Source: a virus
DNA: 25,162 bases
IMG/VR virus record: IMGVR_UViG_3300030107_003717
Span: 1 to 25,162 of that record
Reading direction: 5' to 3' (one strand)
A program made the position numbers and the translations under genes. Within the stretch, counting starts at the first letter, position 1; every line of letters begins with the position of its first letter. This document shows, in pieces, positions 3,217 to 7,134 of the stretch. The notes beneath the pieces were generated by a model. That model was given only the letters and a program-made list of their open reading frames with translations. It searched no databases and had not been told where the DNA came from.

Positions 3217-3849
3217 TTGGAAATACCTGAGATATATATTCGTGAAATATACATTCCAGAAGTTCCAGAAGTTTATACACCTCATTATTTAACTATTACA
3301 AAGCCACCTGATATAGATGTTCCTGGCTGTACTTATCAGCATCGTGATATAAAAAATACAGGTAATCGTAATTTGTTATTAGATGATCCTAATGGAGTAT
3401 TTACAACGTGCGATGTACCGTTTCCTAGTTTTATTCCTCTTGACTATACACCTGAGAATTTGGTCATTACAGAAGAAGTTCCTGTTACTAATGAAACCCC
3501 ACCCTTACCAGAAACAAAGCAACAAGAGATACCAGAGCTACCGAAAGATAAAGATATTGAACTAGAACCCTGCCCTGGCAAAAAAGATCAGAGGGTTGGA
3601 GATTTTCGTAACGAAAAGCGTTTAGAACGTGTCATCGGACATAAAAGAGGGGAAGATGGGGTTGAGTGTATAACCCTCTATGAAAACGTCCCGTTTAAAG
3701 ATCAGTACATTCCAGAAGTTTCTACTATTGTATCTACTGCTGTTATTGGCTTGGTCGCTGCCAGTAGTCCACTTCTTCTTAACGCAGTAAAACCATTAGT
3801 TAAGCAAGTAGTCAAAAAGCTGACAAAGAAGAAAGATAAGGTAAAATAA
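3217..3849 (+). CDS. Pro/Glu-rich protein with C-terminal membrane anchor, TTG start
   Basis: A 210-residue protein starting at TTG 3217, which abuts the previous stop. The N-terminal half is rich in IPEV-type motifs and contains a short VPGC motif. The middle is Pro/Glu-rich and probably extended. A C-terminal hydrophobic segment (about 170-190) is followed by a strongly basic tail of KK repeats. I recall similarly built hypothetical proteins (Pro-rich, PGC motif, membrane segment, Lys tail) next to fibre genes in marine cyanophages, but I cannot check this here. Function is unknown; a membrane- or virion-associated protein is plausible. It is the last gene of the rightward fibre block. Confidence 0.75.
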   Translation: MEIPEIYIREIYIPEVPEVYTPHYLTITKPPDIDVPGCTYQHRDIKNTGNRNLLLDDPNGVFTTCDVPFPSFIPLDYTPENLVITEEVPVTNETPPLPETKQQEIPELPKDKDIELEPCPGKKDQRVGDFRNEKRLERVIGHKRGEDGVECITLYENVPFKDQYIPEVSTIVSTAVIGLVAASSPLLLNAVKPLVKQVVKKLTKKKDKVK

Positions 3850-4096
3850 GTATTAGTAAAAGGATTTGACTCCTTGAGAGGTTCTAGACGCTCTCTTAAT
3901 GCCCAAAGCTAACACTCAATAGGCAAGGTCGTTCTTATTTGAAATACCACCTTTTACTAACTAAGCAAAGGAAGTTGTAAGTATAGTCTTTGACCTCTGC
4001 CGTTACATAGAGCCTTTGCTTTTTAAGCAACCAGACCCATTATCAAGTTGTTAACTCAACCTCTGCTCTGTTGGAACGTCAGTTGCTTATTTTTTT
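3850..4096 (+). ncRNA. Candidate three-domain structured RNA between convergent genes
   Basis: No reading frame fits here, but three long perfect stems follow one another. Domain 1 pairs 3853-3863 with 3950-3960 (TTAGTAAAAGG, 11 bp) and holds inner helices 3876-3880/3891-3895 and 3900-3903/3922-3925. Domain 2 pairs 3963-3971 with 4013-4021 (AAGCAAAGG, 9 bp) and has an inner TGTAA/TTACA helix at 3976-3980/4003-4007. Domain 3 pairs 4025-4031 with 4082-4088 (AAGCAAC, 7 bp), has an inner GTTG/CAAC helix, and is followed by seven T. ACCTCTGC occurs in domains 2 and 3, and AGAGGTT at 3877-3883 could pair with AACCTCT at 4058-4064. No known class is recognised. The stems are seen in the sequence; the RNA is inferred. 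Confidence 0.5.
4025..4096 (+). terminator. Possible rightward terminator (third stem plus T-run)
   Basis: The 7-bp AAGCAAC/GTTGCTT stem, closing at 4082-4088, is followed by A and then seven T (4090-4096) on the plus strand. It would end transcripts of the fibre block just before the convergent exported-protein operon. The loop between the arms is long (50 nt), so termination may depend on the inner folding. Confidence 0.35.
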
Positions 4097-4683
4097 GTCT
4101 TAATTTCGTGCGTATGTGGGATAACTTGACCTGGTGGAACTGTAACTACAATATCTTCACAAGTAACAGCACTAGGAGTATTAGGTTTGAAGGTAACACC
4201 TAATCTTGCCTGCTCAGCACAAATTTTGAGTCTATGGAGAGAAATTTCGAGCGAAGTCTTCTTGTACAGTAATTCTTGATTTTTGATATTTATTTCTGTT
4301 GCCTTATGGCAGAGTTGTGGAGACTTTCCTAATGGAATATTCAGTTGAGCAGAGATACCATAATTTAAATTAAAGTTTTCTTTTTCAAATCTGGGAGTTT
4401 CCTGTACATACTTTATCTCTCCAGTATTTTCGTCATAAATATTTTGTCTGGTAACAGTTTCTCTTGGTAAAGAAAATGTATGAGAATCAGTTACATAAGG
4501 AGTGATCGTAAGACTAGGTGAAGCACAGACAATACCTTGACTCATTCTGAAAGAAGGCATACTAGATGGCGTGATCATGGTGGCATTGTTATTTACTACT
4601 CCAGTACTTTGTGATTGAGGAGATGCTACTGTTGTATTAGCTAGAACCTTAGAAGGGCAAAGAAGTAAAGCTACTGCCCAAAT
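4087..4683 (-). CDS. Exported protein of unknown function, start unclear
   Basis: About 198 residues read from 4683. The frame stays open to a TTG at 4842, but the N-terminal extension is His/Asn/Arg/Lys-rich and lies entirely over the end of the upstream gene. The informative part begins at WAVALLLCPSKVLA, a hydrophobic stretch with a VLA signal-peptidase-like site. Just before it there is no ATG, GTG or TTG, only an ATT at 4683-4681, so a rare start, an upstream start with a long basic n-region, or coupling to the preceding gene is needed. The mature part has several Cys, a beta-rich centre (FNLNYGISAQLNIPLG) and a helical stretch (about 140-165). It is the last gene of the exported operon. 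Function is unknown. Confidence 0.65.
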   Translation of the reverse strand: MWAVALLLCPSKVLANTTVASPQSQSTGVVNNNATMITPSSMPSFRMSQGIVCASPSLTITPYVTDSHTFSLPRETVTRQNIYDENTGEIKYVQETPRFEKENFNLNYGISAQLNIPLGKSPQLCHKATEINIKNQELLYKKTSLEISLHRLKICAEQARLGVTFKPNTPSAVTCEDIVVTVPPGQVIPHTHEIKTKK

Positions 4684-5108
4684 GTAGTTGTAGTTTCTAC
4701 TGTAGTGCTTGTATTTATTGTTCTTGTTATTGTGGTTACTGTGTCTAATCCTGGTGTTATTAAAGTTTCTTGAAGAGAAAATGATGCCCCTGGATTTGTG
4801 ATTGTGAATCTTGGAACGGTTTCTAAGTTTGGTGAAGTCCAACTAAAATTTACTCCTCCAACTGTTTGTTCTGTAAGAGTAGTAGCTGTTGGGTTGATGT
4901 ATTTATTTGTATCGGTACTTTCAATATTGTGTCCTGATGCAGAGTAAGAGTATCCTGTTCGATATTGATGACTTGTGATGGTTTCATTTATTACTGATTC
5001 TGAGGTGCTTGAAGTTTGAGAACTTCCAGATCGAAATTGAGGCACTACTGGAACCGCTAGAGTTCTTATTGGTAGTGCTAAGAATAGTAGTAAACAAAGT
5101 TTTTTCAA
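4671..5108 (-). CDS. Exported Thr/Ser-rich protein, paralogue of upstream gene
   Basis: A 145-residue protein starting at TTG 5108, which overlaps the TGA of the preceding gene as TTGA. Residues 1-18 (MKKLCLLLFLALPIRTLA) form a typical signal peptide with a TLA site and no lipobox. The mature protein is Ser/Thr-rich and predicted to be mostly beta. It shares motifs in the same order with the 171-residue upstream protein: YSxSGxNI, then GGxNxS, then AxFSLxE. This suggests an ancient duplication. It probably crosses the inner membrane by Sec. I associate similar exported proteins with marine cyanophages, from memory. Role unknown; a virion or envelope-surface protein is possible. Confidence 0.75.
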   Translation of the reverse strand: MKKLCLLLFLALPIRTLAVPVVPQFRSGSSQTSSTSESVINETITSHQYRTGYSYSASGHNIESTDTNKYINPTATTLTEQTVGGVNFSWTSPNLETVPRFTITNPGASFSLQETLITPGLDTVTTITRTINTSTTVETTTTFGQ

Positions 5109-6742: not shown

Positions 6743-6989
6743 GTTCTTCTTTTGTAAAATCTTTTACAAGCAGCCTTTGAATCTTATCAATTTCAAAATT
6801 AAACTTCAGGATTGATGTCCTGATGTGTTCAGTAACCCAAGCACCATCTTTATTTACAACCTGGGCTTTATTACTTTCATTAATAAACACATAATGATCC
6901 TGACCCTTCAACTGGACATCTAATAAATTTTTTTCTAAGTTTTTACGTCTGATCTCTTTCAACGCTCTAAGTTTCTTTGAGTCACTCAT
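6714..6989 (-). CDS. Small hypothetical protein
   Basis: A 91-residue protein. A basic N-terminal helix (KKLRALKEIRRKNLEKNL) leads to a short beta-rich centre (DHYVFINESNKAQVVNKDGAW) and a C-terminal helix with FNFEIDKIQRLL. Its start overlaps the end of a 50-residue gene by 8 bp, and its 3' end overlaps the convergent gene by 29 bp. No family is recognised. It is the last gene of the leftward early region. Confidence 0.7.
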   Translation of the reverse strand: MSDSKKLRALKEIRRKNLEKNLLDVQLKGQDHYVFINESNKAQVVNKDGAWVTEHIRTSILKFNFEIDKIQRLLVKDFTKEELKEYEKSVS

Positions 6990-7134
6990 TTTCCAATTCC
7001 GCTATCCTTTTATTTATAGCATCATATCTTACACAATATTCCTTAGTTTTCATATTTTCAAACCAGTATTGCCTTTGCAGTTCTGCAAGCTGGTCATAAT
7101 AATTTTTGATCAAGTCTTTGTTGGTTTGCTCCAT
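6982..7134 (-). CDS. Small helical protein
   Basis: A 50-residue protein read from ATG 7134 to TGA 6984-6982. It is helical and charged, with aromatic residues (NYYDQLAELQRQYWFENM) and a C-terminal IAELENE. Its last codons overlap the start of the next gene (ATGAGTGA). Too short to classify. The overlaps on both sides support it as a real gene. Confidence 0.55.
   Translation of the reverse strand: MEQTNKDLIKNYYDQLAELQRQYWFENMKTKEYCVRYDAINKRIAELENE

Follow-up and report, generated by a model that had tools for sequence, protein, structure and literature searches.

What is encoded in the non-coding DNA between the convergent genes U and D of a Prochlorococcus phage, where several perfect stems follow each other: one large RNA, an elaborate terminator, or a series of separate elements? 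The window analysed here is a stretch of 25,162 nt (positions 1-25,162 of IMG/VR record IMGVR_UViG_3300030107_003717) from a Prochlorococcus siphovirus, whose portal is 88.5% identical to that of P-HS2, MED4-117 and MED4-184. Gene U (phrog_570, unknown function) is located at 3217-3849 on the plus strand, and gene D (phrog_848 / phrog_1755, cyanophage gp165-like) at 4087-4842 on the minus strand. For the region in between, the original prediction had proposed a single phage-encoded structured RNA of three domains, closed by perfect stems of 11, 9 and 7 bp. All three stems are present, and the third extends to 8 bp. On the plus strand, they close module 1 (family F12, 108 nt, 3853-3960, stem 3853-3863/3950-3960), module 2 (family F2, 59 nt, 3963-4021, stem 3963-3971/4013-4021) and module 3 (family F1, 66 nt, 4024-4089, stem 4024-4031/4082-4089). 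Directly 3' of module 3 follows the terminator-like tail TTTTTTT (4090-4096, plus strand), and the stop codon of gene D (4087-4089) falls within the 3' arm of stem 3. The repeat ACCTCTGC of domains 2 and 3 was found at 3993 and 4059, AGAGGTT and AACCTCT are present at 3877 and 4058, and no gene-sized open reading frame lies within 3850-4096, all in agreement with the original prediction.

The three non-overlapping stems comprise 28 perfect base pairs, a value that none of 1000 dinucleotide shuffles reached (mean 6.3, maximum 19). The fold z-score that had been recommended as a check was -1.65 for the plus strand and -3.11 for the minus strand, so that the minus strand folds better; plain folding energy is weaker evidence for this region than stem tiling and alone unconvincing. 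Rfam covariance models (including those for tRNA, tmRNA, 6S, Yfr and cyanophage motifs) yielded no match at the gathering threshold in the window and 12 relatives, the best score noted being 13.3 bits for astro_FSE, compared to a threshold of 70. Furthermore, no tRNA or tmRNA was found in the window. A known RNA was ruled out by the absence of Rfam, tRNA and tmRNA matches. The region is, as had been claimed, larger than a simple bidirectional terminator and fits no Rfam class, and the prediction of a phage-encoded structured non-coding RNA is supported.

Relatives were retrieved from IMG/VR by their encoded U or D, and further loci by module patterns. The modules were annotated by means of 39 seed sequences with 20 family labels; families and boundaries were sorted by us from the seeds. 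This annotation covered 179 distinct U-D spacers, whose flanks differ slightly among some, so that the loci are not fully independent. The spacers are -8 to 2815 nt long and contain between zero and about five separately folding modules. Modules are present in 163 of the 179 spacers, with 19 family labels in 81 distinct orders, and 370 of 370 lie on the strand of U (plus). In the unbiased subset, fetched by the flanking proteins alone, 92 of 104 spacers contain modules, in 43 orders and with 206 of 206 on the plus strand; one or more larger modules occur in 45 of these 104 spacers, and the others have only short hairpins (F0, F4, F18) or none. Nine distinct loci with abutting or overlapping U and D have no module, and the array is therefore dispensable.

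The three domains of the original prediction did not hold together in this comparison. In relatives they occur alone, reordered, or with other partners, that is, as independent modules. Module 1 is found without an F1 or F2 module in 14 of 19 loci, which rules out one RNA with interacting domains and speaks against the proposed pairing of AGAGGTT in domain 1 with AACCTCT in domain 3; moreover, AGAGGTT mostly sits in a local stem. Judged from these spacers, the region does not represent one RNA but an instance of a hypervariable array in which independent, putatively structured RNA modules are placed between the two convergent genes of Prochlorococcus siphoviruses.

Covariation was assessed family by family. 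The F1 alignment, calculated with MAFFT, contains 34 distinct sequences picked by us; it is independent of structure to a good degree for the inner helices and to a lesser degree for the closing stem, which was used to pick some of the instances. Double compensatory changes were found in 12 of 19 consensus pairs, which for module 3 is in line with the covariance check that had been suggested for the three stems. Paired cells account for 98.1%, compared to 84.1% in column shuffles. The covariation score is 0.563, compared to 0.272 (sd 0.014) in column shuffles, which lose the relatedness of the sequences, and to at most 0.11 when partners were slid by 1-3 columns, a control that keeps it. For F2, double compensatory changes occur in five of the eight pairs of the closing stem, a result that covers this stem and not the interior. 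F12 is well conserved in sequence and keeps its stems with little covariation; it varies too little to prove them. On their own, modules 1 and 2 of the window are poorly supported by covariation. F6, which is absent from the window, has double changes in 10 of 20 pairs, in only 10 sequences. In at least two families, F1 and F6, the compensatory changes show that the predicted base-paired structure has been kept. The original prediction had named the uncompensated loss of stems between conserved flanking genes as an observation that would speak against it. Losses and replacements of whole modules do occur in relatives; module 3, however, has compensated stems where it is kept.

The covariance model R2 matches module 3 of the window at 4026-4087 with 86.5 bits, and this module belongs to a new RNA family with strong covariation. 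R2 also weakly touches F2-type and F17-type modules, via a common hairpin followed by ACCUCUG or a close variant. Non-Watson-Crick exceptions in F1 are 49 G.U versus 3 A.C, and in F2 they are 7 G.U versus 0 A.C. An RNA made from the minus strand would give the reverse, and the excess of G.U therefore indicates that the plus strand is the RNA.

Of the 163 distinct loci with modules, 141 have a TATAAT box (at least five of six matches) in the 26 nt that precede the first module. The corresponding values are 22% for shuffled upstream sequences and 6 of 163 for a more upstream part of U. In 121 of these 141 loci, the distance from the end of the box to the module is 5-8 nt, a spacing that would place the transcript start at the first base of the module. 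Among the loci with modules, 137 of 163 have the box at the end of U, compared to none of nine loci without modules. The box overlaps codons at this position and could partly reflect coding (KVE-stop). Behind F4, the commonest second unit is preceded by the box in 25 of 45 cases (23 of them perfect TATAAT), and there the DNA is non-coding. In the window, the -10-like hexamer TAAAAT (3842-3847, plus strand) overlaps the last codons of U and ends 5 nt before the first module. A separate scan paired it with the -35-like hexamer CTGACA (3820-3825, plus strand) as CTGACA-16-TAAAAT at 3820-3847, with 10 of 12 matches and a spacer of 16; since chance alone would give about one such site per region, the weight is carried by the position and the conservation of the box. 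Given a promoter-like box directly before the array, it is doubtful that late expression downstream of the fibre block would be the cause of a transcript, as had been suggested.

Gene D and its operon belong to families that are also present in cyanophage podo- and myoviruses (gp165, gp166), and the modules were followed to other sites and viruses. Among 133 instances of F1, F2 and F12 that were checked, a list that included a few chance matches, 94 are directly flanked by U and D; most of the remaining ones have one of the two or no gene of the window nearby. In a Prochlorococcus podovirus-like contig (L240), a head-assembly gene and a T7-like major head gene flank a module. The podovirus-like contigs L486, L443 and L241 have modules next to an exonuclease that shares 79.5% identity with its counterpart in P-SCSP2 within the compared stretch. 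Siphovirus loci with differing neighbours and L213 share a 62-nt F1 module without any difference in sequence; in L213, the end of the upstream gene matches the one in L240. Modules are therefore exchanged between virus families.

The cultured podovirus P-SCSP2, which is grown on MED4, contains an F1-like module of 152 nt at 31009-31160. It adjoins the same D-type genes, and a TATAGT box is located six bases upstream. Its closing stem AGGAAC...GUUCCU is a compensated change from AGCAAC...GUUGCU, and the inner GACC and GAACGUCAG of F1 are kept. R2 did not find this module in a search of P-SCSP2, which is due to a long insert; its classification as a putative F1 relative rests on our reading of the ends and on the syntenic spacer. 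When the modules were compared with cultured phages by means of blastn, only the single-particle virus AG-345-A17 matched. The D gene is annotated as overlapping its convergent neighbour in P-RSM1 and P-RSP2. In P-SSP7, P-GSP1, NATL1A-7, 9515-10a, SS120-1 and S-TIP37, the genes that follow D are on the same strand as D, and the spacer of P-SCSP1u comprises 36 nt with a single short hairpin. An origin from a host RNA was considered and rejected: an exact search with the 20-nt core of F1, which is blind to divergent host copies, gave one match in the genomes of 84,980 species, and this match belongs to a single-cell assembly, in which the contig concerned has the gene content of a phage.

The reading that we favour, and regard as rather likely, is that Prochlorococcus phages have a modular non-coding RNA gene, of which window positions 3842-4096 represent one allele, and that its modules act in trans. 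Host RNA polymerase would start at about 3853 and stop at the T-run near 4096, which corresponds to a transcript of about 240 nt. Closed off by its own helix, each module would fold independently, and modules may be released by cleavage at the short A/U-rich linkers. The modules, which are probably trans-acting small RNAs or decoys, would act on targets of the host or of competitors. As the module ends are alike (AAGCA...TGCTT), recombination between them could swap modules between phages and in this way vary the set of targets. Chances seem evenly balanced for the broader proposal of a fixed slot with its own promoter, in which unrelated RNA modules are swapped in one orientation, even across phage families, so that each phage has its own trans-acting set. 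A comparison of the conserved loops with the start regions of the phage's own genes yielded only a weak excess of complementarity; a strong complementary site of F12 before the gene at 6982-7134 is present with or without F12.

In a sub-case of this explanation, which does without base-pairing, the modules would function as anti-defence or decoy RNAs through binding to a host protein such as a nuclease, RNA polymerase or a defence sensor, and their swapping would reflect an arms race. The extreme gain, loss and swapping at one accessory site would fit, as would the unrelated folds at the same site and the occurrence in two phage families of one host genus. We know of no partner protein for the modules, however, and the loop motif ACCUCUG after a hairpin, which is all that some families share, is compatible with either mode of action. 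This specific version is put forward only tentatively.

We consider it unlikely that the modules are terminators or 3'-end stabilisers that insulate two convergent operons and owe their variety to neutral hairpin turnover. The main context is always the ends of convergent genes, the closing stems are often followed by T-rich tails, as is the window array by its run of seven T, and some spacers hold only a short hairpin (F4). A terminator, however, requires no conserved covarying inner helices and, in a convergent spacer, no fixed strand, yet all 370 modules are on the plus strand. Tandem stacks of up to five modules with a -10 box in front are unexpected for terminators, at least nine distinct loci with abutting or overlapping genes have no module, and F1 modules also occur upstream of a major head gene. 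A terminator scan (G+C-rich stem, loop of 3-8 nt, T-tail) detected no site in 3700-4200; it covers short loops only, and a tail of seven T after a 66-nt module is beyond its definition. The preservation of inner helices and loops, the fixed strand and the tandem copies make regulatory small RNAs or protein decoys, in our view, likelier than terminators.

Very unlikely is a function at the DNA level, with the hairpins as single-stranded recombination or insertion sites (integron attC, MITEs, REP) and the RNA as incidental: the similar ends AAGCA...TGCTT, the modular shuffling, the presence at several genome sites and the whole genes within the same spacer of some loci would agree with it, but the pairing exceptions point to one strand (49 G.U versus 3 A.C), the orientation is single, promoter boxes stand 5-8 nt before the first module, and the ends, read from the sequences as AGCAAC...GTTGCT and AGYAAAGG...CCTTTRCT, do not fit the attC rule RYYYAAC...GTTRRRY. 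REP and MITE elements occur in both orientations at many sites; the modules lie on one strand (370 of 370), and their other sites are few. CRISPR arrays consist of near-identical repeats; modules within one array are usually of different families.

The proposed modular RNA gene has partial likenesses to several known systems. Integron gene-cassette arrays consist of exchangeable cassettes that share one orientation and follow a promoter at a single site. The array resembles them in these respects, with a promoter-like box in front, but its cargo would be folded RNAs without reading frames, and the attC consensus was not seen. Phage tRNA arrays and small-RNA clusters are tandem small structured RNAs at an accessory site that are gained and lost between relatives. 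The modules share these properties; they are, however, not tRNAs and belong to many unrelated families in shuffled order. The modules resemble the RNase III sites of T7, which are structured intergenic hairpins of about 60 nt that contain inner loops; those sites, however, are not interchangeable tandem families. GOLLD and ROOL are large ornate RNAs that are often linked to phages (PMC12286853). The modules have in common with them that they are predicted structured, phage-linked RNAs; they differ as arrays of 30-150 nt modules versus single large RNAs, and have no Rfam match.

The Yfr1 motif of cyanobacteria is an ultraconserved, unpaired ACUCCUCACAC between two stem-loops (PMC2190773). The modules are similar to Yfr1 and Yfr10 in being short putative non-coding RNAs from the same host group, with an apparent promoter of their own and an unpaired CU-rich motif between helices (PMC2190773, PMC6778093). 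The F1b modules contain CUCCUCAC, which corresponds to eight letters of the Yfr1 motif; the window modules do not have it, and module 3 contains ACCUCUGCUCUG instead. In contrast to Yfr1 and Yfr10, the modules lack an Rfam match, have another fold and an incomplete 11-nt motif, and stand in arrays of unrelated modules. The CU-rich conserved loops recall the host Yfr1 motif and may serve as a lead, not as evidence of common targets.

No description of such arrays was found in the open-access literature; a description outside open papers is possible. To our knowledge, the exchange of unrelated structured RNAs as oriented cassettes has not been described for any locus. For this reason we call the arrangement, which matches no RNA family or system found, a candidate for a new kind of locus, a label that falls if the modules prove to be terminators. 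If the modular reading is true, phages of the most abundant photosynthetic cells would carry an accessory locus with structured RNA rather than protein as cargo, RNA modules would be traded between virus families, and a large natural library of new folded RNAs would be at hand for tests of binding, regulation and counter-defence. Since cultured P-SCSP2 carries a relative, the role of phage non-coding RNAs should be testable in the MED4 system.

Several further observations were made at these loci. In L021, L058, L005, L033, L063, L098 and L144, with U-D spacers of 1.3-2.8 kb, whole protein genes stand ahead of the RNA units, and the slot therefore also accepts protein cargo. The first 0.8-1.4 kb of the spacers of L021 and L058 are non-coding and contain apparent imperfect long tandem repeats. 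The unit F18 (L033, L005, L058 and others) consists of a TATAAT box, the short hairpin GUAGAUAAGUUACUUGGAAGGGGCUUAUCUAC and a T-run, and looks like a separate short terminated transcript. The overlap of D and its neighbour in P-RSM1 leaves no space for an array. At sites independent of L223 (L477, L499, L184, L411, L418), F1 or F2 modules are located elsewhere in the genome; that of L477 lies between two genes of the same strand. The modules of L477 and L499 adjoin genes that we take, from our reading of the protein, to be RusA-like. The tail fibre encoded at 248-2488 of the window has many degenerate repeats, and its C-terminal domain is a Peptidase_S74 chaperone. The segment 2857-6069, which comprises phrog_568 ("plasmid stability"), U, and D with its operon, has relatives in cyanophage sipho-, podo- and myoviruses.
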